Source of the DNA: a virus
IMG/VR virus record: IMGVR_UViG_3300042090_000228
Span: 1-20,057 of that record
Length of the DNA stretch: 20,057 bases
Strand: one strand, 5' to 3'
Shown here: in pieces, positions 533 through 20,057 of the stretch
Numbering within the stretch: the stretch's first letter is position 1
How the letters are laid out: each line of letters begins with the position of its first letter
The notes under the pieces: generated by a model
Told to the model about the DNA's origin: nothing
The model's input: only the letters and a program-made list of their open reading frames with translations
The model's database searches: none
Program-made: the position numbers and the translations under genes

Positions 533-3500
533 CTAACGCTCCGCGGTGCGAACCCATCCGCCAATGTTCACGACCGTCGCCGGGTAGGGGCGCGAGACCT
601 GCCAGCACAGCATACCGTCAAAGCTGGGGCTATCGGCCACGGTGTCCCAATGGATGCCGGTGAACAGTTGCGTGACCGGGTATATGGGACCGCTCTCATA
701 GGCCGACAACTGCGCCGGATAGAGGTGATCGAAGTCAGTCCCGAAAGAAATCCCTTGGGTATTGAACAGCATGGTGCTGAACATATGCGCCCGACGTGTC
801 TCGCCCTGTGCCGGCCCGATCCGGGACCCGGTGTCCTGTTGCGTGGCCGGGCGCACGATTTGGCCCTCTGAGGTGAACGCGAACCCGATCGCGGCTGGGA
901 TCGCGCCGTCATAGCTCTGCGCCAGGGTCAGCGTGAACAGCCCGTTGGCGGCGCCGATCGGCACGGTGACCGAGCCATCCGACCCGACGGTGTAGGTGCC
1001 ACAGTCCAGGCCCGCGGCCCACACGTCCACCGATTGGCCGGCGAGTTGATTGTAGCCGTAGAAGATAACCTCGGTGTTGCTGTCCGCGATCGTTTGGCTC
1101 GACGGGCCGGCGGAACTGTCAACGAACCACGCGGTCTCCAGGGTGCTGTCCACGTCGGCCAGCGGCATCATGACCTCGACGTAATGCACGCCGTTTGCGT
1201 CCTCCGTCACCATGGCCAACTGGTCGAGCGTCGTGTCTGGCGTTAGCGTCATGGTGATGCTGGTAACTGTGCGCCCCGAGCCCAGGGAATGGCGGTGCCA
1301 TGCCGCGTATGTGCTGGGCTCGTTCAGCAGCACGGGGTTGTCGGTCTGGATGGCCGACAGGCGCCGGTAGGTGCAGCCCGCGAGGCTCCCGTCATTCATG
1401 CGCGCCCAGATAACCGGCGCCAACTCCTCCTGGTAGGCGATCTCCGCGATACCCGGCGCGGTGATATGCCGCCCTGTCAGCGCGAGGTTGGGGGCGTTGT
1501 ATTTGCCCGAGAACACGTTGGCCACCATCTCCAGCATCTGGCGCTGGAACTTCTGGACGAACACCGTCGCCAGACCCGTGGTCTTCGGCTCGACGAACGC
1601 GCTGCCGTAGTGGGTCACCGGGTTGATTTCCGCGGTGGCCGGGGTGATCGGGTCATTGGTCGTGCTGGCCGAGATCATCCACTCGCGCGAGCGCGTGCCG
1701 ACGAGGATGCCCTGTTGCACGCCCTTCATCCACAGGATCGTCTCGTCATCGTCCGAGTTGAACACGAAGCTGATGCCGTTGCTGTCGGCCACGGTGCCGT
1801 CAGTCGCGGTCGGCGTGAACGTGAGCGGGTCGTCCGAGACGCTGCTGTCCACCCGGTTCGGCACGGCCCCGGCCAACCATAGCCGGCCCTGGTAGAAGCA
1901 ACCACAGGTGGGCCATTGGGAATTGGTGTCGGTATAGACGCCGGCCTGATACAGGGTGATCGGGGTGGCATCGGTGAGCGAGCCATTCAACTGCACGTCG
2001 ATCGAGGTGGCGGAATGGATCGCCGTGACGATCCCGGGCACCCAGTAAGCCGCCCCGGCCGCGGCCTGCCATTGGTTCAGGCTGACCGGCGGCGCGGCGC
2101 CCGTGCTTTGCTCCAGGGCCGTGTAATAGGCCGCTGGGTCACCATAGGTCACGGACTGACCGGCGACATACGTGACGCCCTGCTGCCAGACAGGTGGCTG
2201 ATAGAACAAGCGGATCAGGCGCCCAACGTCGCCAGACTGCGCCCCATCCGGGCCGAACGCGAGCCCGGCATTTGGCACCGTTGCCCATTGGCTCGTGCTT
2301 ATATCCGGCTCGTTGTTCAGGTTGCCGTTGACGAGGCTGATGTAGTTGCCAGAACCATAGGACGCGGTGTCGCCTTCGGCGTAAGTCGTCAGCGAACTCC
2401 ATGTCGCGAATGATAACTCCATCGTGATAATGCCGGTGATGTTCTCGCTGATCTGCGCGAAGTTTACCGGCGCCCAACTTTCAGTGATCCCCAGGTTGGC
2501 GCCGGGCGTGTCCGACCCGACGAACGAGTGTGTGCCGCGGTTCACGGCGACATAGTATTGCCCGTTGTAGTAGACGGTCGAGCCGCTGCCGCTGCCGTTC
2601 CACGCCGTATAGGAGCCGCCGCTTGTCCACGTGTTGAAATAGGGCGGGCTGGAGTTCACGAGCGTCGGATCGCACAAGACCCAAGCGGAGTTGGTTCCGG
2701 GGACGTTATTAACGTTCGTGCCGCCGATGCCGCCTGTCGTGCTGATGTAAACCGCGCCCTGATACGATACGATGTCACCCGTGTTATACCGGCCGAGCGA
2801 ACCGCTGGCGGGGGTCCAATCCACGTTGTAGACCGGGCCAATCGTCGGCGTGCCCGAGCCCGCGGTCATCGTGGCCACCTCCCCGTTGACGGGATCGAGG
2901 TATGGCCCATCGGTGAGCGACGCTGCCGCCATGGCGAACGTGGTCGTGCCGGCGCCGAGTGTCTGGGCCGAGAGAAGCTGGGGTTGATGACCAACGGCGA
3001 GGAGCACGCCCTCGGTGATGTTTTGCGCACTCGTGAACGGTATCCAGCGCATGTAAGGCAGCGAGGCCGCGACGAACGGGCTGGTCAGGGTCGTGATGCG
3101 CGCGACCTGCGGGTAATGCCCGGAGACGAAGGAAAGCCCAACGCCAGATATGGCCGCGCCGGTCACCGCGTCTTTCAGGGTGAAGGTCGTGGTGCTGTCC
3201 ATCGTCACGGTGAACTGACGGTATTGTAGCGGCCCAGTGGACGTGCCCGGGAACACTCCTGACGGGAACAGGAACATGACCTGATCGCCCGTTGACCAGG
3301 AGACCGCGGCGCCCACGGTAAAGACGCCAGGATTGGCGTTCGTCACGCCGGTCACCGTCGGCGGGGCCGGATCGGTCACCAGCCCGCCCGCGTAGAAGAA
3401 CCGCAGGTTGCTGTCCGTGAACTCCAGCAGGTATGGAAGGCTCTGGGTCGGCGCCCAGCCAATCAACTTGGCCGCGTAGCCCAGGCGAGTAGGCGCCAGC

Positions 3501-3664
3501 ATCAACGTGCCGGAGCGCCGCTCAACGGCTCCTTCCTCCAACGGAATGAAGTTGGAGCACAGGTTCATGGCCGTGCGATACTTTGGCAGGTCGAACCTGC
3601 CTTGCATCAACGCGGACCACTCGCCTCCAAGGAAAGAGTTCTGGGTGAACGAAGCCTGCCCCAT
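533..3664 (-). CDS. Large tail nozzle-type protein with FCCH-like and carbohydrate-binding-like modules
   Basis: A 1043-aa protein. The N-terminus (residues 6-60) has the pattern F..N.FLGGEWS....GR.DL.KY...M..C.NF...E.GA.ERR.GT, typical of large podovirus tail proteins in the nozzle/gp12 position. Residues about 100-185 (from PPTVTGVTNANPG) resemble the phage version of the E1-FCCH beta domain. Four short W/Y-rich stretches (about 283-331, 345-398, 421-463, 492-533) have the layout W..Y..GD.V.Y...Y......W of CBM5/12-like chitin-binding modules. The C-terminal half looks like beta-rich nozzle body. It follows the gp11-like connector and the zipper protein, as in T7 gp11-gp12 order. The start has a GAAGG site ten bases upstream. 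Tail identity is well supported. Sugar binding by the modules is inference. Confidence 0.8.
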   Translation of the reverse strand: MGQASFTQNSFLGGEWSALMQGRFDLPKYRTAMNLCSNFIPLEEGAVERRSGTLMLAPTRLGYAAKLIGWAPTQSLPYLLEFTDSNLRFFYAGGLVTDPAPPTVTGVTNANPGVFTVGAAVSWSTGDQVMFLFPSGVFPGTSTGPLQYRQFTVTMDSTTTFTLKDAVTGAAISGVGLSFVSGHYPQVARITTLTSPFVAASLPYMRWIPFTSAQNITEGVLLAVGHQPQLLSAQTLGAGTTTFAMAAASLTDGPYLDPVNGEVATMTAGSGTPTIGPVYNVDWTPASGSLGRYNTGDIVSYQGAVYISTTGGIGGTNVNNVPGTNSAWVLCDPTLVNSSPPYFNTWTSGGSYTAWNGSGSGSTVYYNGQYYVAVNRGTHSFVGSDTPGANLGITESWAPVNFAQISENITGIITMELSFATWSSLTTYAEGDTASYGSGNYISLVNGNLNNEPDISTSQWATVPNAGLAFGPDGAQSGDVGRLIRLFYQPPVWQQGVTYVAGQSVTYGDPAAYYTALEQSTGAAPPVSLNQWQAAAGAAYWVPGIVTAIHSATSIDVQLNGSLTDATPITLYQAGVYTDTNSQWPTCGCFYQGRLWLAGAVPNRVDSSVSDDPLTFTPTATDGTVADSNGISFVFNSDDDETILWMKGVQQGILVGTRSREWMISASTTNDPITPATAEINPVTHYGSAFVEPKTTGLATVFVQKFQRQMLEMVANVFSGKYNAPNLALTGRHITAPGIAEIAYQEELAPVIWARMNDGSLAGCTYRRLSAIQTDNPVLLNEPSTYAAWHRHSLGSGRTVTSITMTLTPDTTLDQLAMVTEDANGVHYVEVMMPLADVDSTLETAWFVDSSAGPSSQTIADSNTEVIFYGYNQLAGQSVDVWAAGLDCGTYTVGSDGSVTVPIGAANGLFTLTLAQSYDGAIPAAIGFAFTSEGQIVRPATQQDTGSRIGPAQGETRRAHMFSTMLFNTQGISFGTDFDHLYPAQLSAYESGPIYPVTQLFTGIHWDTVADSPSFDGMLCWQVSRPYPATVVNIGGWVRTAER

Positions 3665-3864: not shown

Positions 3865-5174
3865 GATATGTAATCATCCTCCGGGGGTTGATCGGTGCCG
3901 CTCTCCACCGCGTTGACGATCCGCGCCTCGCCCATCGTTCGGTTATAGGCCGCGGCTATGCTGGCTTTCTTCGAAGGGTCCTGGGTCAGTTCCTCAACGA
4001 TTTCAAACGCGATGCGCGCGGCGAGACCCTCGCAGAACATATCGTCCATCTTCGAGACGTTCGTTATGTCCGCGATGAAGCGCAGCAAGATTATCGAGTT
4101 CTCGCGCGAGGTGAGGAAGCCGGCCTCCTGCACCCAGTCGGAATAGGTGAGCCCGCCGGGCGCCCCGAGATACGAGACCGCGCCCTGGGTAGGGTCCTGC
4201 GGCGCCATGCGCAGGAAACCATACGGCAACGGGAATGCGTTGCGCGTGTTGGCCTCTTGCACCGGGCCGGAGCCGATCGGGTATTCCGCGATCCCCGACT
4301 GCACCGTGGCCTGGATCGGGAGCCAGTTGATGTTCGACGCCAGGGCGACCGTGGGCGCGTCCACAGGCCCGCAGGAAATCCATTGGCTGTTCGATCCTGG
4401 CGGCGGGTTGCCCACGTTCTGCTCGATCGCGGAGCGCCAGAGCACCCACTGATACATGACCACCTGATCGCGGTTGTAGGTGACCAAGGGGTTCCAGTCA
4501 GTCAGGGTCCAGGGATTGTTCGACGAATTGGACGTGATGGCGACGGTCGTGATCGACTGCACCGCGCCGGCCGACGGCTGCGTGTTGATGGTGACCTGGA
4601 TGTTTCCGTTACCGTTCCCGTTGACCAGCGAGCGATAGACATTGATCGCCTGCGTATTCGGGTTCTGCACGTAGACCAGTTCGCCGGCCCAGTAGCTTGA
4701 TGTCATGTCGTAAGGCACGGCGATCCGCGGCCCAAAGTAGACATCCCAAACGGAGCCCGAGCCCACCCCGGGCGCATTGTTGAGGTTCTCCTGGGCGTAG
4801 GAAGTCCACCAGAGCCCCGGCACGCTTGGGTCGGTCACAATGGCTCCGGGCGTATAAGTCACGGTGGAGGACCACGTGGAAGGTGTCAGCCACAGGGTTC
4901 CGGTATTCGGGCCGCTCTGGGGCTGGTAAATCGAGTTGCCCAGGATGCCGGTCATGTTCGCCGCCAGAGGACGCAACGGCGCGCGGCGTGTCGAGAAGAC
5001 CCAGGTGTTCCGGCGCAATTCCGCGCGCCGGAGTTTGTCATAGACGAACGCGCACGCCGCCGCCTGTTGGCTGGTATCCGACAGGCTCACAATCCGCCGC
5101 ACGCCACAGTGTTGCAGAGCGCGGTTGCATATGTCTTCCGGGATATTAAACGCGGCGGGCGTGTCAAGGCTCAT
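3852..5174 (-). CDS. Head-tail connector / tail tubular protein A-like, with inserted modules
   Basis: A 440-aa protein. Residues 12-66 (ICNRAL..CG...I.SL.D.S..A.....VYD..R...LR...W.FS.RRA) match the N-terminal helical signature of T7 gp11-like and P22 gp4-like connectors. The C-terminal segment (about 345-435: EAGFLTSRENSIILLRFIAD, then FCEGLAARIAFEIVEELTQ and a terminal helix) is the usual C-terminal half. Family members are generally near 200 aa. The extra length is a central block holding three W/Y-rich carbohydrate-binding-like stretches (about 100-146, 155-185, 225-267). It forms the ring between portal and nozzle. An AGGAA site six bases upstream overlaps the preceding stop codon. Family call is strong. 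The role of the inserted modules is inference. Confidence 0.85.
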   Translation of the reverse strand: MSLDTPAAFNIPEDICNRALQHCGVRRIVSLSDTSQQAAACAFVYDKLRRAELRRNTWVFSTRRAPLRPLAANMTGILGNSIYQPQSGPNTGTLWLTPSTWSSTVTYTPGAIVTDPSVPGLWWTSYAQENLNNAPGVGSGSVWDVYFGPRIAVPYDMTSSYWAGELVYVQNPNTQAINVYRSLVNGNGNGNIQVTINTQPSAGAVQSITTVAITSNSSNNPWTLTDWNPLVTYNRDQVVMYQWVLWRSAIEQNVGNPPPGSNSQWISCGPVDAPTVALASNINWLPIQATVQSGIAEYPIGSGPVQEANTRNAFPLPYGFLRMAPQDPTQGAVSYLGAPGGLTYSDWVQEAGFLTSRENSIILLRFIADITNVSKMDDMFCEGLAARIAFEIVEELTQDPSKKASIAAAYNRTMGEARIVNAVESGTDQPPEDDYISCRA

Positions 5175-7783: not shown

Positions 7784-7801
7784 GCGCTACTCCTTTGTTA
7801 C

Positions 7802-7856
7802 CCTGGGCACCGTTCACCTTTCGGCAGGCCGGGCGTTCCGCCCGTTTAAGCCCAGG
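7802..7856 (-). terminator. Nested inverted repeats between cement-like gene and next gene (RNA processing or attenuation site)
   Basis: A perfect 6-bp stem with a 3-base loop (7830-7835 with 7839-7844) sits inside a 7-bp outer inverted repeat (7802-7808 with 7850-7856), immediately before the SD of the 138-aa gene. There is no U-tract after the stem in the leftward direction, so a classical intrinsic terminator is unlikely. A stabilising, processing or partial-attenuation structure is more plausible. Function is inferred. Confidence 0.35.
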
Positions 7857-7869
7857 TCACAACTCGTGG

Positions 7870-8472
7870 TTACGCCGCTCCAGGAACGGTGTAGTCAACC
7901 TTCAGCATCATCGTGCCGCCCGTGGTGACGCCAGTGGTCACATAGGCCACGATGTCGAATAGCCCACCTGGATCGGTCGAATAGCCCAGGACCTGCCACA
8001 GGGGTTGGTTCTCAGAACCCGGCGGGAAGTTGGTCGCGTTCGCATAGGTCAGGTCATAGGGGGACCCCGACGCCAGGATGGATTGCGCTGCGCCGAACAA
8101 CTTGTTGTTCGCCGAACTAATCTGCGGAATGGTGCTCTGCAACGCGGTCGGCGTGCCATCCGTGGTGCTGTCCGAGAACCGCACGTTGAAGTCCGCGGCG
8201 CCGGCCGACGCGATCGTGAAACTGTAAAGCTTCACCGATTTCACATGCGCGCTGGTCGGAATGCGAACCATGGAATACGTCGAGGACGTGTTGTCGCCGC
8301 TGGCCACGGTCACCTTGTCGGTGATGGTCAGGAGGCTGGCCTGTGCGCCCTCGCCGGCCGTGTTCGCCACCACCGGGTTAGAGGCTTGCGTCGGGGCCGA
8401 AGTGAAGGTCGCGGCAGTCAAACCGTCGAGATTGACGATCGACTGGGAGAAAGCGATGTTGGTCTGCGTCAT
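7870..8472 (-). CDS. Probable capsid cement/decoration protein
   Basis: A 200-aa protein encoded directly after the major capsid gene. The centre (about 50-95: ITDKVTVASGDNTSSTYSMV, then IPTSAHVKSVKLYSF..ASAGAADFNVRFSD) and the C-terminal strands (GLFDIVAYVTTGVTTGGTMMLKVDY, in part) look like a beta-sandwich or jellyroll. In Bordetella phage BPP-1 and related podoviruses the gene after the capsid gene encodes a jellyroll cement protein that stabilises the shell. The position and fold look match, but I see no diagnostic motif. The start has GGAG eight bases upstream. Confidence 0.55.
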   Translation of the reverse strand: MTQTNIAFSQSIVNLDGLTAATFTSAPTQASNPVVANTAGEGAQASLLTITDKVTVASGDNTSSTYSMVRIPTSAHVKSVKLYSFTIASAGAADFNVRFSDSTTDGTPTALQSTIPQISSANNKLFGAAQSILASGSPYDLTYANATNFPPGSENQPLWQVLGYSTDPGGLFDIVAYVTTGVTTGGTMMLKVDYTVPGAA

Positions 8473-16374: not shown

Positions 16375-16485
16375 ATGCTATCGCTCGCGTTCAACGCGGC
16401 ATGTCTGGCCTACATGGGCATAGCCTATCTGGCGTGCCTGTGGCTCGCTGGCGTGCCCATGCCATGGGAAGATGACAATGGTTAA
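16375..16485 (+). CDS. 36-aa single-helix membrane microprotein
   Basis: An ATG seven bases after a perfect AGGAG (16363-16367) opens a 36-codon frame, too short to be flagged by usual length filters. It has a short polar start, one hydrophobic helix of about 24 residues (LAFNAACLAYMGIAYLACLW) and an acidic tail, PWEDDNG. It is the first gene of the rightward block, and its end overlaps the start of the next gene. A small membrane protein is well supported. Function (host takeover, superinfection exclusion, lysis control) is unknown. Confidence 0.65.
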   Translation: MLSLAFNAACLAYMGIAYLACLWLAGVPMPWEDDNG

Positions 16486-16669
16486 CTTGCCTCGTGTCGT
16501 TGAAGCAGAGATCGCACTAGCTTTCGAGCATTGGCGCGCTATCGGCTACAGCGCGCAAACGTCAATGGCGCTTGCACTGGCCAAACACAGCACAGATGAC
16601 CGCTTTCGCGCAGAAGCGCGCGGCTATGTGTTTCGTCACACTAACCAAACGGAGGCCGATCTTGTCTGA
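16478..16669 (+). CDS. Small helical protein, unknown
   Basis: A 63-aa protein from the ATG at 16478, with GGAAG seven bases upstream. An in-frame ATG at 16472 abuts that site and is less likely. Sequence VVEAEIALAFEHWRAIGYSA followed by ALALAKHSTDDRFRAEARGY is amphipathic and helical. It overlaps the end of the microprotein gene and its own stop lies inside the start of the next gene. No family recognised. Confidence 0.6.
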   Translation: MVNLPRVVEAEIALAFEHWRAIGYSAQTSMALALAKHSTDDRFRAEARGYVFRHTNQTEADLV

Positions 16670-16943
16670 TCCACTGCTAAAGCGCTTGCGCTCATGCTGG
16701 CGTTGCGTGGTGCGCAATTACATACACGCGTGGCATTTCCCCAATGAGCACAAGAGCCTGATTGTGGGCCATCTTACCGGCGTGACAGGGTTTATCATGT
16801 CGCTGGCGGGATGGCACAGTGTCAGCGTGTGGTTGCACGGGGGCGGGATGGCGCTTGTCCTACATCATCATTTCACCAACCCGGCAACGCGCAAGCATGT
16901 TGAGGGAGACACACTGGACGACGTGATAGACGCTGAAGCCTAG
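16662..16943 (+). CDS. 93-aa probable membrane protein with TTG start
   Basis: I place the start at TTG 16662, six bases after a perfect GGAGG (16651-16655) and overlapping the previous stop. The open frame continues upstream to 16572, but only inside the previous gene. Residues 1-33 are basic (LLKRLRSCWRCVVRNYIHAW). Residues about 33-72 hold one or two hydrophobic stretches (SLIVGHLTGVTGFIMSLAGW, then VWLHGGGMALVLHHHF). The tail is acidic. The final Ala codon and TAG are the first bases of the duplicated 80-bp element. Function unknown. Basic N-terminus, hydrophobic middle and acidic tail would suit a small inner-membrane protein. Confidence 0.65.
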   Translation: MSDPLLKRLRSCWRCVVRNYIHAWHFPNEHKSLIVGHLTGVTGFIMSLAGWHSVSVWLHGGGMALVLHHHFTNPATRKHVEGDTLDDVIDAEA

Positions 16944-17017
16944 CGCTTACGCTTGCTCCATCTGTGCTTAGGGTGGAGCTTGCGCCAGCGCTTGGCTGGA
17001 AACACAGAACAAAGGAG
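16938..17017 (+). ncRNA. Pseudoknot-forming intergenic RNA element, copy 1
   Basis: An 80-base element identical to 17738-17817. Pairing seen: P1 16942-16947 with 16987-16992 (AGCGCT both), P2 16950-16952 with 16982-16984, P3 16955-16960 with 16974-16979 (GCTCCA/TGGAGC), joined by 2x2 internal loops. The 13-base loop starts TCTGTG (16961-16966), which is complementary to CACAGA at 17003-17008, two bases before the SD AAAGGAG (17011-17017). This makes an H-type pseudoknot next to the ribosome site. An alternative hairpin, CCAGC 16985-16989 with GCTGG 16995-16999, excludes P1. P1 starts inside the upstream stop codon, so terminating ribosomes would open it. A translational switch is inferred. 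Confidence 0.7.
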
Positions 17018-17023
17018 CTAACC

Positions 17024-17098
17024 GTGTCACCGTTTGAAATCATGGCCCTTGTCGGGCTGCTGCTGGTCATCGGCATCAAATTCGCCTGGGAGGTGTAA
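17024..17098 (+). CDS. 24-aa membrane microprotein downstream of pseudoknot copy 1
   Basis: A GTG start six bases after the AAAGGAG that closes the 80-base element. The 24 codons encode SPFEIMALVGLLLVIGIKFA followed by WEV, a single hydrophobic helix with short polar ends. The next gene follows after four bases. The RNA element upstream would directly gate this start. Alternatively the element serves the whole following group. Small size limits certainty, but SD and hydrophobic pattern agree. Confidence 0.6.
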   Translation: MSPFEIMALVGLLLVIGIKFAWEV

Positions 17099-17102
17099 CG
17101 CC

Positions 17103-17390
17103 ATGTTTTACTATGGTGACCATGCATCTATGCGCGCGGATGACCTCGACGATAGCTACGACGATGATCTGTCCGAATTGGATGATGGCGAGCTTCGCGA
17201 CCTTGTGCGTGAGCTTCGCGACCTTGTGCGTGAGCTTCGCGACCTTGTGCGTGAGCTTCGCGCACAGGTGGAGCAACTGAAAGCGCGTGAACAATCGCGC
17301 GCGGCAACCGTTGCCCATGCGCCCGGGGCCTTTGACGGGCGCAGCATGGCTGATGCGATGGCCACAACCTTGAAGGAGCTTAAACTATGA
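17103..17390 (+). CDS. Acidic protein with perfect leucine-heptad tandem repeat
   Basis: A 95-aa protein from the ATG at 17103, with GGGAGG nine bases upstream (17088-17093). A longer frame to 17034 overlaps the microprotein gene and is not favoured. Residues 11-28 are very acidic (ADDLDDSYDDDLSELDDGE). Residues 30-50 are three exact copies of ELRDLVR, followed by ELRAQVEQLKAREQ: a parallel coiled coil with Leu at a and d. The tail is Ala/Gly-rich and ends LKELKL. The repeat is perfect in DNA too. It probably oligomerises. Function unknown. The stop overlaps the next start as ATGA. Confidence 0.7.
   Translation: MFYYGDHASMRADDLDDSYDDDLSELDDGELRDLVRELRDLVRELRDLVRELRAQVEQLKAREQSRAATVAHAPGAFDGRSMADAMATTLKELKL
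17190..17262 (+). repeat. 21-bp tandem repeat, three copies plus 10 bases
   Basis: Units at 17190-17210, 17211-17231 and 17232-17252 are identical, followed by a partial unit at 17253-17262. Each encodes the heptad ELRDLVR. Exact identity including third codon positions points to recent slippage expansion, so the copy number may vary between related phages. Confidence 0.95.
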
Positions 17391-17743
17391 TACGTGAGGC
17401 TTCAATCATCCTGCCACGTGTCCACAAAGAGGCCACGTTTTCACTCCGCGAGGGCTTGCTCGACCGTTTCGGCGGCTACACTGAGCACGAAGCGGATGGC
17501 GCATGGCGCGATCCTCAAACCGGCATCGTCCACATTGACTATAACTCAGTGTTTACCATCGCGGTAGACGATGATGATGGGTCACACATGCTCGACCTGC
17601 GCGACCTTGCCATGAATGCAGGCACGCAAGCGGGACAAATCAGCGTCTACGTGCGCGGCTTTGACGGACACGTGGAGTTCGTCAACTGCGACCACATGCC
17701 CGCGCCAGCGCTGGTCACGCATGGCGAACCTATCCACGCCTAG
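17387..17743 (+). CDS. Conserved small phage protein (EASIILP...GG..GAW type), unknown
   Basis: A 118-aa protein. The pattern REASIILP (3-10), FGGYTEHEADGAWRDPQTGI (28-47), VFTIAVDDDD, LRDLAMNAGTQAGQISVYVR and GHVEFV resembles a widespread uncharacterised family in phages and proteobacteria with a compact alpha/beta domain. The ATG lies eight bases after AAGGAG and overlaps the previous stop as ATGA. The last Ala codon and TAG are the start of the second 80-base element, so this gene's end abuts a regulatory RNA, as at 16943. Family impression is from memory of similar sequences. No function is known to me. Confidence 0.7.
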   Translation: MIREASIILPRVHKEATFSLREGLLDRFGGYTEHEADGAWRDPQTGIVHIDYNSVFTIAVDDDDGSHMLDLRDLAMNAGTQAGQISVYVRGFDGHVEFVNCDHMPAPALVTHGEPIHA

Positions 17744-17817
17744 CGCTTACGCTTGCTCCATCTGTGCTTAGGGTGGAGCTTGCGCCAGCGCTTGGCTGGA
17801 AACACAGAACAAAGGAG
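17738..17817 (+). ncRNA. Pseudoknot-forming intergenic RNA element, copy 2
   Basis: Identical over all 80 bases to 16938-17017, offset by exactly 800. P1 is 17742-17747 with 17787-17792, P2 17750-17752 with 17782-17784, P3 17755-17760 with 17774-17779. The pseudoknot pairs TCTGTG 17761-17766 with CACAGA 17803-17808, then the SD is at 17811-17817. As in copy 1 it spans the whole space between one gene's last codon and the next gene's SD. Function as a translational regulator is inference. Confidence 0.7.
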
Positions 17818-17827
17818 AATGCTTGTC

Positions 17828-18031
17828 ATGGCCACGAATGGCAATCAATACATAATCCGCGCGCCAAGGCATTGGACCCTGGCGCTGCTAGGCGAGAGTG
17901 CCACGCCTAAAGAGGCGCGTGACTATCGTGCCAAGCTTGCGCACGAGGGGCGAGTTATCGTCTCGCTCGCCGGTCACGCGGATCGCGCGGAAACCGGCTA
18001 CCTCGCCAACTTCATCGCGTATGGAGAGTGA
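17828..18031 (+). CDS. Small protein downstream of pseudoknot copy 2, unknown
   Basis: A 67-aa protein from the ATG at 17828, ten bases after AAAGGAG. An in-frame ATG at 17819 is only one base from the site and is unlikely. An upstream extension to 17753 would lie inside the RNA element. Sequence: QYIIRAPRHWTLALLGESAT, a helix PKEARDYRAKLAHEGR, then VIVSLAGHADRAETGYLANF and a short tail. It looks like a compact alpha/beta domain. No family recognised. One base separates its stop from the next start. Confidence 0.65.
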   Translation: MATNGNQYIIRAPRHWTLALLGESATPKEARDYRAKLAHEGRVIVSLAGHADRAETGYLANFIAYGE

Positions 18032-18032
18032 C

Positions 18033-18446
18033 ATGACCGACACCCTATCATTCCGTTCCGCCGTGCTCGACATCGCGGGCCGCTTGTTTCCCCACGGGTT
18101 CGACATCAACCCGAACCCGCCAAACACGCTGGAGGAGCTTGCGCTCACCATGCTGCAAACCGGGCGCATGGTAGTCACCTCGCACGTGACGGATGACTGC
18201 GAGTTCGACGCCCCCACCTATGCCGCGTTCCGCGCGTGGCATGATTGGTGCCATGTATTCGGTGGTCACGCGTTCGACCTGCAAGGCGAGTGTGCGGCCG
18301 TTCGGATGCAACTGGCCATGATATACGGCATGTATGGCAAAGCCTGCCATGACGCCTGGAAGCCCACGCTCTTGCGCCAGATCATTAAGGACAATTTTGG
18401 CGAGGACGCGTTTTGCCCTGGGCTGCTAGGGGCTGCGATTGAGTGA
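18033..18446 (+). CDS. Conserved HxxxH phage protein, putative metal binder
   Basis: A 137-aa protein from the ATG at 18033, with GGAGAG five bases upstream. A longer frame into the previous gene is not favoured. The core at 64-96 reads FRAWHDWCHVFGGHAFDLQG followed by ECAAVRMQ, putting H70, H74, H79 and E86 in a row of likely metal-ligand or active-site residues. Phage proteins with 'FR.WHD..H......F...GE...' are common and uncharacterised as far as I know. The rest is helical with Cys/His scattered. It is not a canonical HExxH. It sits in the accessory block next to a real HExxH protein. Confidence 0.7.
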   Translation: MTDTLSFRSAVLDIAGRLFPHGFDINPNPPNTLEELALTMLQTGRMVVTSHVTDDCEFDAPTYAAFRAWHDWCHVFGGHAFDLQGECAAVRMQLAMIYGMYGKACHDAWKPTLLRQIIKDNFGEDAFCPGLLGAAIE

Positions 18447-18519
18447 CCTGACCGTAATCCTGGGCGGCTACGGGGCACTGTGCCTCGTAGCCGTCACAAT
18501 CCACCTTATGAGGAGTTAA
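18439..18519 (+). CDS. 26-aa membrane microprotein with TTG start
   Basis: A TTG six bases after AGGGG, overlapping the previous stop in another frame, opens 26 codons: SDLTVILGGYGALCLVAVTI then HLMRS, a single hydrophobic helix with a basic end. Its last codons contain the AGGAG used by the next gene. It fills an otherwise empty 78-base gap and resembles the other single-helix microproteins here in size and style. SD strength is moderate. Confidence 0.45.
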   Translation: MSDLTVILGGYGALCLVAVTIHLMRS

Positions 18520-18524
18520 GACCA

Positions 18525-18932
18525 ATGAACCATATGGACATCGCGGCAAAGATCGTCGCGGATGCTGGCGTGCGGCATATTGACTGGCTACCGCCAAGCC
18601 AAGCGGAGCGTGCCGCGTCAATGTGGCGCTTTAAGGCCATGCTCGTGGCGCCACCGATTGACGATAAGACGCTGACCATATTCGCCCACGAAGCAGGGCA
18701 CCTCGCTACCACGCCAGACGCGACACGCGAGGGCTTGTCAATCCTGGAAATCGAATATCGCGCCAGTAAATGGGGCGCGGACGCCATTCGGCGTCATGGT
18801 GGCACGGTAACGCCAGCCATGGTGGCGAACATGCGTCGCGTGCTACGGCACTATGCCGAGGACCCGGACGACGTGGATGGGCGGGAACCGCCGGAGGTTT
18901 ACCATTTCCTGAAAGGAGAAGCCGACCTATGA
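18525..18932 (+). CDS. HExxH zincin-like protein, ImmA/IrrE-type candidate
   Basis: A 135-aa protein from the ATG at 18525, nine bases after AGGAG (18511-18515). The key segment LTIFAHEAGHLATT has the zinc-protease motif H55-E56-x-x-H59. E75 or E77 in LEIEYRASKWGADAI could be the third ligand, at a spacing and context like the E..A..FA stretch of ImmA/IrrE peptidases. Those enzymes cleave repressors or anti-repressors in mobile elements and stress regulators in bacteria. The protein is short and lacks an N-terminal HTH. Function by family is plausible but the match is motif-based only. Confidence 0.65.
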   Translation: MNHMDIAAKIVADAGVRHIDWLPPSQAERAASMWRFKAMLVAPPIDDKTLTIFAHEAGHLATTPDATREGLSILEIEYRASKWGADAIRRHGGTVTPAMVANMRRVLRHYAEDPDDVDGREPPEVYHFLKGEADL

Positions 18933-19117
18933 CACAGAAGCATCTCAGAGATGCGCCAGTCGCATACGACTACGTTGGCCAAATCATGGCCTATGAGCAA
19001 GGTGACTTGGACAACGAGGATACCTTGACCCTGTTCCGCTACCTCGTAGACAGGGGGACCATCTGGCACCTGCAAGGCCACTATCAGCGCGCGGCGCACG
19101 CCATGGGACTGATATGA
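18929..19117 (+). CDS. Small conserved phage protein (MAYEQGDLD...LQGHY type)
   Basis: A 62-aa protein from the ATG at 18929, overlapping the previous stop as ATGA, with AAAGGAG ten bases upstream. The pattern Q.MAYEQGDLDNEDTLTLFR, LVDRG..WHLQGHYQR.A..MGLI is a very common small phage protein (usually 'YE.GELDE...ELFQ.LVD.G..W.LQGHYGR.A..LI'), sometimes labelled DUF7417. No function is known to me. It ends the group before the long structured leader. Confidence 0.75.
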   Translation: MTQKHLRDAPVAYDYVGQIMAYEQGDLDNEDTLTLFRYLVDRGTIWHLQGHYQRAAHAMGLI

Positions 19118-19143
19118 CGATTTCCATCGCCAGAATGTAATAA
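19114..19143 (+). promoter_or_regulatory. Weak candidate promoter before the structured leader
   Basis: ATGACG (19114-19119) and TAATAA (19138-19143) are separated by 18 bases, in the most A/T-rich stretch of this gap, just upstream of the folded leader. The match to sigma70 hexamers is only partial (4 of 6 and 3 of 6), so this is a suggestion rather than a call. Confidence 0.2.
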
Positions 19144-19155
19144 AACCCTTGAAAT

Positions 19156-19261
19156 CCGGGTATTCCTCCTTATGTCAGGCGCCACGCCTTCGCGCGACCG
19201 ACCCTCTGGGGAGGGATCAGCGCGAGAGGCCCAAGCAACCGACATAGTGGAATATACCCGG
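19156..19261 (+). ncRNA. Three-way-junction structured leader RNA
   Basis: The closing helix is CCGGGTA 19156-19162 with TACCCGG 19255-19261, TTCC 19163-19166 with GGAA 19249-19252, and TATGTC 19171-19176 with GACATA 19241-19246. Inside are two hairpins: AGGCG/CGCCT (19177-19181, 19185-19189, 3-base loop), and TCGCGC/GCGCGA (19190-19195, 19220-19225), the latter topped by CCCTC/GAGGG (19202-19206, 19211-19215, 4-base loop). A 15-base single strand (19226-19240) completes the junction. The SD (19276-19282) follows 14 bases later. It fills most of the 173-base gap before the winged-helix-like gene. I do not recognise it as a known riboswitch or ribozyme. Confidence 0.65.
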
Positions 19262-19290
19262 AAACTGGGATAGAAAGAGGAGAACTTAGC

Positions 19291-19740
19291 ATGACTACGC
19301 AAGCCGAATGGCTGCGCATGACTGATCCCGCTGTGCCTTGGCGACAGCGCTACGCCACCCTAGAGGGGGAGGTGCGGACTGTGCTCGCGACCCTGGCGCC
19401 AGACGAGACCCTGACCACCCGGCGACTGGTGCAACGCTTGTTCCCGGACCCGCGAGGGCCGGAGGGCGCGACCGTCGTGAGGCGCCTATACAATGCCATG
19501 GAGCCCCTCGCGACCCATGGGCTGGCCGATTGCGTCACCCTGGGGAAACCGACCGTCATCTATGGTCGGTTAAAGCAACGGCGGTTATGGAAGCACCCCG
19601 CAGGCCCCACCCTGGAGGACGTGCGGCGCATCTGTGCGGCCTACCTGGACGCCCGCCCCGCGATGCCGGATGACTTGCGCTACCGGGCCGCTGCGGCTTT
19701 GCTTGCCGGCCGGGATCAAGAGGAGAACCAAACATCATGA
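19291..19740 (+). CDS. Winged-helix-like DNA-binding protein, putative
   Basis: A 149-aa protein. Residues 25-60 (EGEVRTVLATLAPDETLTTR, then RLVQRLFPD) and 60-80 (TVVRRLYNAMEPLATHGLAD) have the helix-helix-recognition-helix spacing of a winged helix. TLGKPTVIYGRLKQRRLWKHP (83-103) would be the wing and the following basic strand. The C-terminus is helical. Phage proteins with this 'G....YGR....LW..P' ending are frequent and usually unnamed. The start is eight bases after AGAGGAG, downstream of the three-way-junction leader, and ACTTAGC directly precedes the ATG. It could be a regulator of this phage. No HTH score was computed. Confidence 0.6.
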   Translation: MTTQAEWLRMTDPAVPWRQRYATLEGEVRTVLATLAPDETLTTRRLVQRLFPDPRGPEGATVVRRLYNAMEPLATHGLADCVTLGKPTVIYGRLKQRRLWKHPAGPTLEDVRRICAAYLDARPAMPDDLRYRAAAALLAGRDQEENQTS

Positions 19741-20057
19741 AACCCGTTACCATATCAATTTCCATGCTCCGAAAGGCGGGCGCATGTAAGGCCGAGCTTT
19801 CCCGGCTGGAGGGTTTATTCGGCCCTCGCGTCGCCTTGACGGAGGAGTTCGCCCTAGCCAATGCCGCATCCTGTGACTGGGATTGGGCCGCGTTCAATTT
19901 ACTTTCCGGCTCGGCCCAGGCGGAATACGAGCGTGTCAGGGGCGCGGCCTGGGCGGAATACGAGCGTGTCACGGACCCGGCCCGGGCGGAATACGAGCGT
20001 GTCAGGGGCGCGGCCTGGGCGGAATACGAGCGTGTCAGGGGCGCGGCCCGGGCGGAA
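19737..20057 (+). CDS. Tandem-repeat protein (AEYERV units), truncated by window edge
   Basis: It starts at ATG 19737 (ATGA overlap with the previous gene; AGGAG upstream) and runs off the right edge after 107 codons. Residues 1-60 form a unique domain (KAELSRLEGLFGPRVALTEE then FALANAASCDWDWAAFNLLS). From residue 62 it consists of 11-residue repeats AEYERVRGAAW, with variants ending TDPAR. Phage proteins with the same head and 'A.AEYERV' repeats are known and uncharacterised. The repeats should form continuous helices. The true length is unknown because the repeat continues past the edge. Confidence 0.75.
   Translation, partial: MKPVTISISMLRKAGACKAELSRLEGLFGPRVALTEEFALANAASCDWDWAAFNLLSGSAQAEYERVRGAAWAEYERVTDPARAEYERVRGAAWAEYERVRGAARAE
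19920..20057 (+). repeat. 33-bp tandem repeats, four copies plus partial
   Basis: Units at 19920-19952, 19953-19985, 19986-20018 and 20019-20051, then GCGGAA of a fifth at the edge. The first 19 bases are identical in all four units. Differences concentrate in the last 14 bases (AGGGGC against ACGGAC; GCG against CCG; TGG against CGG). Units 1, 3 and 4 are identical in sequence. Confidence 0.95.

Follow-up and report, generated by a model that had tools for sequence, protein, structure and literature searches.

A duplicated intercistronic element with two mutually exclusive predicted folds in the early operon of a podovirus-like phage

The lambda cIII mRNA folds alternatively. Structures of this type (cited in PMC5371410) link mRNA structure, translation and RNase III in a phage, as far as they are described there; they cover a start region, whereas the element reported here lies between two genes and leaves the SD open. 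In the early operon of T7, the RNase III sites R0.5, R1, R1.1 and R1.3 are, as is our element, irregular intercistronic hairpins that lie between a stop codon and an SD and have no U-run, and RNase III is known to process T7 transcripts (Dunn and Studier 1973, cited in PMC5371410). Other phages carry repeated intergenic sequences of a different kind. In cluster K mycobacteriophages, the SAS/ESAS likewise recur between genes, lie beside the starts of non-structural genes and contain inverted repeats; the changes found in these inverted repeats gave no support to RNA pairing, and the authors favoured DNA-binding sites (PMC3203893). While SAS/ESAS are a fixed 13-bp repeat, in the related family described below the stems covary, and the 13-bp GGGATAGGAGCCC repeat at start codons is absent from the element studied here. 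The PeSLs of T4-like phages are promoter-terminator composites (Comeau et al. 2014, cited in PMC5931544). In the account available from that citing paper they resemble our element in being intergenic stem-loops that are repeated and associated with the shuffling of modules, but they carry a promoter and a terminator, whereas our element has neither promoter nor T-run. Neither the SAS/ESAS nor the PeSL definition fits the element.

The window, i.e. the whole stretch of DNA analyzed, is a virus record of 20,057 nucleotides. Its structural genes (terminase, head-tail adaptor, major head protein and tail proteins, according to PHROGs) are on the minus strand, and a set of small genes at 16375-19740, with no protein functions assigned, is on the plus strand. 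Among the latter, two 80-nt copies of one sequence, spaced 800 nt, flank a 720-bp module of three genes. The sequence comparison confirmed the identity of the copies (80/80) that had been claimed in the original prediction, and no further copy of the 80-mer was found elsewhere in the record. Both copies open with the final Ala codon of an upstream ORF and its TAG (ORF ends at 16943 and 17743) and close with the SD AAAGGAG, ahead of a GTG at 17024 (copy 1) or an ATG at 17828 (copy 2), so that each one spans the space from stop codon to SD, as had been proposed. The predicted fold of the 80-mer has -37.6 kcal/mol (z -3.4), and none of 200 shuffles was as good. All three stacked helices anticipated for it are present: P1 (AGCGCT/AGCGCT), P2 (CGC/GCG) and P3 (GCTCCA/TGGAGC), the last one lengthening to 9 pairs when GU is counted. 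The pairing of head and tail in P1 exceeded that of tail shuffles (p 0.013). In addition, a 3-bp outer GCC/GGC prolongs P1 beyond a U-U mismatch, and therefore the helix passes through the stop codon. The features of the locus are the following:

16662..16943, plus strand: gene upstream of copy 1, 93 aa, predicted from sequence, function unassigned
16938..17017, plus strand: element copy 1, identical to copy 2
16938..16940, plus strand: outer GCC, pairing with GGC at 16994-16996 and continuing P1 (fold)
16942..16947, plus strand: P1 5' arm AGCGCT of copy 1, overlapping the TAG stop at 16941-16943 (fold)
16950..16952, plus strand: P2 5' arm CGC, pairing with 16982-16984 and followed by a UU/UU internal loop (fold)
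16955..16979, plus strand: P3 hairpin of copy 1, GCTCCATCT-GTGCTTA-GGGTGGAGC (fold)
16961..16966, plus strand: TCTGTG, proposed pseudoknot strand, unsupported
16985..16999, plus strand: H2, alternative hairpin of copy 1, CCAGC-GCTTG-GCTGG, excluding P1 (motif, refolding)
16987..16992, plus strand: P1 3' arm AGCGCT of copy 1, common to H2 (fold, refolding)
17003..17008, plus strand: CACAGA, proposed pseudoknot partner, unsupported
17011..17017, plus strand: SD AAAGGAG of copy 1 (sequence)
17024..17098, plus strand: gD, gene of a 24-aa hydrophobic peptide, downstream of copy 1
17387..17743, plus strand: gF, upstream of copy 2, phrog_3543 (no assigned function)
17738..17817, plus strand: element copy 2, the sole other site in the record
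17742..17747, plus strand: P1 5' arm of copy 2, with the 3' arm at 17787-17792 (identity to copy 1)
17755..17779, plus strand: P3 of copy 2 (identity to copy 1)
17785..17799, plus strand: H2 of copy 2 (identity to copy 1)
17828..18031, plus strand: gG, downstream of copy 2, 67 aa, function unassigned

Other traits of the small-gene region were also observed. Besides gD, a second tiny hydrophobic peptide gene (about 26 aa) is found at about 18439-18517, with a TTG start and a 15-bp hairpin inside, and a similar tiny ORF follows the gH homologue in the related contig L030. In gE, a 21-nt exact repeat occurs three times (17190-17262) and encodes heptads of the RDLVREL type, and at 19879-20057 tandem repeats of 33 nt, encoding an 11-aa repeat (AEYERV...), run off the contig end. 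The leader of gK (19118-19290) presents a long closed fold, CCGGGTATTCC/GGAATATACCCGG, of -62 kcal/mol; in L030 (5737-5536, minus strand) the leader of a homologous-looking gene is laid out alike and differs in sequence (-78 kcal/mol), and both are possibly another structured RNA.

No relatives of the 80-mer were recovered by sequence: exact and gapped DNA patterns in viral contigs and blastn in phages gave no match. The proteins gF and gH, used as single queries in viral_contigs, had no close relative, which left no direct homologue of the window element to align. At the gathering cutoffs, Rfam (SAM-II, preQ1 and all other families) gave no match over the window, and the relaxed search gave a spurious snoRNA match only, outside both copies; the element had not been recognized at the outset, and these covariance searches agree in offering no credible match. 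On the other hand, terminase searches led to over 100 related, podovirus-like contigs. Their small-gene region is mosaic, the homologues of gF, gH, gI and gJ being ordered differently in L030, L004 and L005. Duplicated intergenic cassettes are also found in these phages: L043 has one of 89 nt (7789-7877 and 8097-8185, minus strand; 94% identity) in which both copies start at TAG and contain several hairpins, with a relative in L050, and L036 has its own duplicated intergenic element. Repeated long palindromic hairpins (GTTAACCATGTTTG...) lie between small genes of L022 (Brevundimonas phage Bajun) at 1627-1768 and 3367-3527, and L004 carries a duplicated terminator-like hairpin with a T-run (4784-4816 and 4907-4939), each followed by a promoter-like stretch. 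This cassette of L004 is more PeSL-like than the window element.

To compare the architecture, the early-strand spacers between a stop codon and an SD were gathered with a simple home-made gene caller, and the elements were selected by a single criterion, the presence of one strong continuous hairpin (P3). The same layout recurs in the related phages and is also that of the window element: the stop codon, P1 starting on or beside it, a strong P3, a small hairpin H2 that reuses the P1 3' arm, and the SD. Pairing of the sequence before P3 with the sequence after it (P1) exceeded that in shuffles (Fisher combined p 9e-5, n 18), and a second hairpin after P3 (H2) was in excess (combined p 7e-8, n 18), although in the window element alone H2 was not significant (p 0.14) and in several elements the predicted P1 was weak. 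The P1 3' arm fell inside H2 more often than expected by sliding (0.94 vs 0.83, p 0.008), which makes P1 and H2 mutually exclusive. The 15-bp hairpin of the gH-gI spacer was excluded from the statistics on H2 and on the overlap because it is probably within a small TTG-started ORF. A motif of the form ..GC-(4-7 nt)-GC.. in H2 was present in 10 of 23 early-strand elements, including the CCAGC-GCTTG-GCTGG of the window, against 1.9 expected, a count that none of 1000 shuffles reached. The motif was defined after inspecting the elements, and therefore two controls outweigh the p-value: the other 101 early spacers presented no excess (13 vs 11.6 expected), and none of the 7 late-strand elements had it. 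In L045, four early-strand spacers (2768, 3941, 4468 and 6065) end in H2-type hairpins whose stems differ and are mostly fully paired (TAGGC/GCCTA, AGGGC/GCTCT, CGACGC/GCGTCG). The exclusion of P1 by a competing hairpin CCAGC/GCTGG, advanced in the original prediction, is thus upheld by the presence of the hairpin, its predicted refolding and its comparative recurrence. Two stricter rules were tried and abandoned: P1 does not begin exactly at the stop codon, as it often reaches a few bases into the coding end, and an exact anti-stop triplet in the tail was only weakly enriched.

Four of these elements (L097, L129, L146 and L154) have in common TGATYGCAGYC-P3-NNCGGCRATY. A covariance model built from three of them (R1) found further members on the early strand, namely L150 (twice), L073, L145, L058 (of which L060 is a repeat), L005 and L040, and the clear members found in this way sit between a stop codon and an SD. 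This GATTGC family, 10 copies in 9 phages, is newly recognized here. In the 10 aligned copies 96% of the P1 and P3 pair cells were standard and 12 of 16 pairs presented double changes (4 of 6 in P1 alone), in an alignment that was fitted to the model and so favours structure; the covariation score was 0.68 against 0.23 in shuffles (0/500) and at most 0.09 when slid. Furthermore, L058, L005, L040 and L146 had already been found without the model as stop-P3-SD elements. In L145 the stop is TAA and P1 pairs A-U where the TGA members pair G-C, and in L129 P1 lies just after the stop and not on it. The two copies of L150 (6695-6625 and 6387-6319, minus strand) have a common P1/H2 core and a different but paired P3. 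Together with the covariation of P1 and P3, this shows selection on the fold. No covariation of H2 was seen within the family, since H2 is conserved and hardly varies. A refined model (R2), run unfiltered on the window, had no match on the plus strand at 16938-17017 or 17738-17817, nor did R2 match in one Rhodospirillales MAG, a single genome searched without a positive control. The window element has the architecture of the GATTGC family and lies outside it, and therefore its own case rests on architecture and folding.

These observations support a structured intercistronic element in which a stop-proximal helix and a pre-SD hairpin exclude each other, and which probably serves to process or regulate a shared mRNA. 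The reading that we prefer, tentatively and at somewhat less than an even chance, is that of an intercistronic cassette for RNA processing and end protection in the early operon of a podovirus-like phage. In the uncut transcript the upstream stop codon would be held within a long irregular hairpin, P1-P2-P3, of about 18-21 pairs, shaped like the RNase III processing signals of T7; the window element itself has this shape, with about 20 pairs in an irregular hairpin placed between the stop of one gene and the SD of the next. After a cut in this hairpin, P3 would form the 3' end of one mRNA, right behind its gene, and the P1 3' arm, now free, would refold into H2 as a small hairpin at the 5' end of the next mRNA, just before its SD. 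The stem sequences vary freely among the elements, which fits the expectation for a nuclease that reads structure; such a cassette agrees with this variation, with the position of P3 behind one gene and of H2 before the following one, with the lack of a T-run after P3 in all 23 early elements, and with an SD accessibility that is the same in both states (see below). When the T7 region was folded, the R0.5 hairpin was found to include the gene 0.4 stop codon. The spacers folded here are the RNase III sites of T7, which the T7 record does not annotate as such. Unlike the phage elements, the T7 folds examined presented no recognized H2-like hairpin overlapping the P1 3' arm, and no sequence relation between the two was shown; by analogy we infer the role of RNase III, and with it the cleavage, the protection of the ends and such effects on expression as there may be.

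Because P1 and H2 exclude each other, translation termination at the stop codon could decide between them just as a cut could. In a translational reading, which we consider possible but doubtful, the terminating ribosome would cover the P1 5' arm, H2 would form, and initiation at the next gene would change, by coupling or by insulation. This reading keeps real weight because P1 lies on or beside the stop codon and P3 follows at about one ribosome footprint. All three bases of the stop were paired in 59% of the elements against 25% in shuffles (about 1/400), and P3 starts 11-15 nt past the first stop base in most elements. Such a distance is about the edge of the footprint of a terminating ribosome. 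The overlap of P1 with H2 beyond sliding points in the same direction, and when the first 12 nt of the window element were blocked, as by a ribosome on the stop, the predicted fold switched from P1 to H2, the P1 form being otherwise about 7.6 kcal/mol more stable. However, across the elements the gain of H2 upon blocking was marginal (p 0.053), the anti-stop triplet reached 12 cases vs 8.7 expected (66/1000 shuffles), and P1 sits after the stop in L129. The predicted accessibility of the SD also stayed constant (mean 0.48, against 0.49 when a ribosome occupies the stop; p 0.28), which makes hiding or exposing the SD an unlikely output, against what had been proposed at first. A broader formulation, a hitherto undescribed type of phage RNA switch that responds to termination, in which the partner strand of a stop-locking helix otherwise forms a pre-SD hairpin and the message downstream is reset by a terminating ribosome or by a cut, seems to us rather unlikely. 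The original prediction saw instead a pseudoknot beside the SD by which the SD is hidden or exposed, in the manner of SAM-II and preQ1 riboswitches or T4 gene 32, and this we judge very improbable. TCTGTG and CACAGA do form a perfect 6-bp match (duplex -6.3 kcal/mol), but when the tail is shuffled, about 4% of the sequences still offer the loop a Watson-Crick match of 6 bp (22% if GU is allowed), and of 22 other elements only L147 reached at least 6 such pairs; the complementarity is real and is best regarded as a coincidence. The likeness to SAM-II or preQ1 is unsupported, as the SD pairs with the element in neither predicted structure, its accessibility does not change and Rfam gives no match. 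From the logic of a translational switch, the competing stop-proximal helix and hairpin stand, and the pseudoknot and the exposure of the SD do not.

The identity of the copies around a three-gene module could also be explained by a mobile or recombinational intergenic repeat, in which identical cassettes would let modules come and go by homologous recombination and the fold would be secondary. The mosaic gene order between the window, L030 and L004 and the duplicated cassettes of other phages, such as that of L043, speak for it, but we find it improbable as the main explanation: P1 and P3 covary in the related family, the paralogous copies of L150 differ in P3 and keep it paired, and no target-site duplication was seen at the window copies. 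An intrinsic terminator, or a PeSL-like cassette of promoter and stem-loop, is hardly credible; intergenic stem-loops repeated in one genome suggest it, but the stem is never followed by a T-run in the early elements, and a scan of both copies found no promoter-like or terminator-like site.

From a single transcript, the early operon of a phage must yield numerous small proteins, each at a defined level. A recurrent element that changes fast in sequence, keeps its fold and connects one gene's end with the next gene's start would solve this problem in a general way. Such elements are missed by sequence searches, and none of the related-phage loci tested matched Rfam. In synthetic operons, the element could also be used as a small module with which genes are kept apart or coupled. 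The covarying family, for its part, offers a concrete model in which to ask whether processing or termination controls the next gene.
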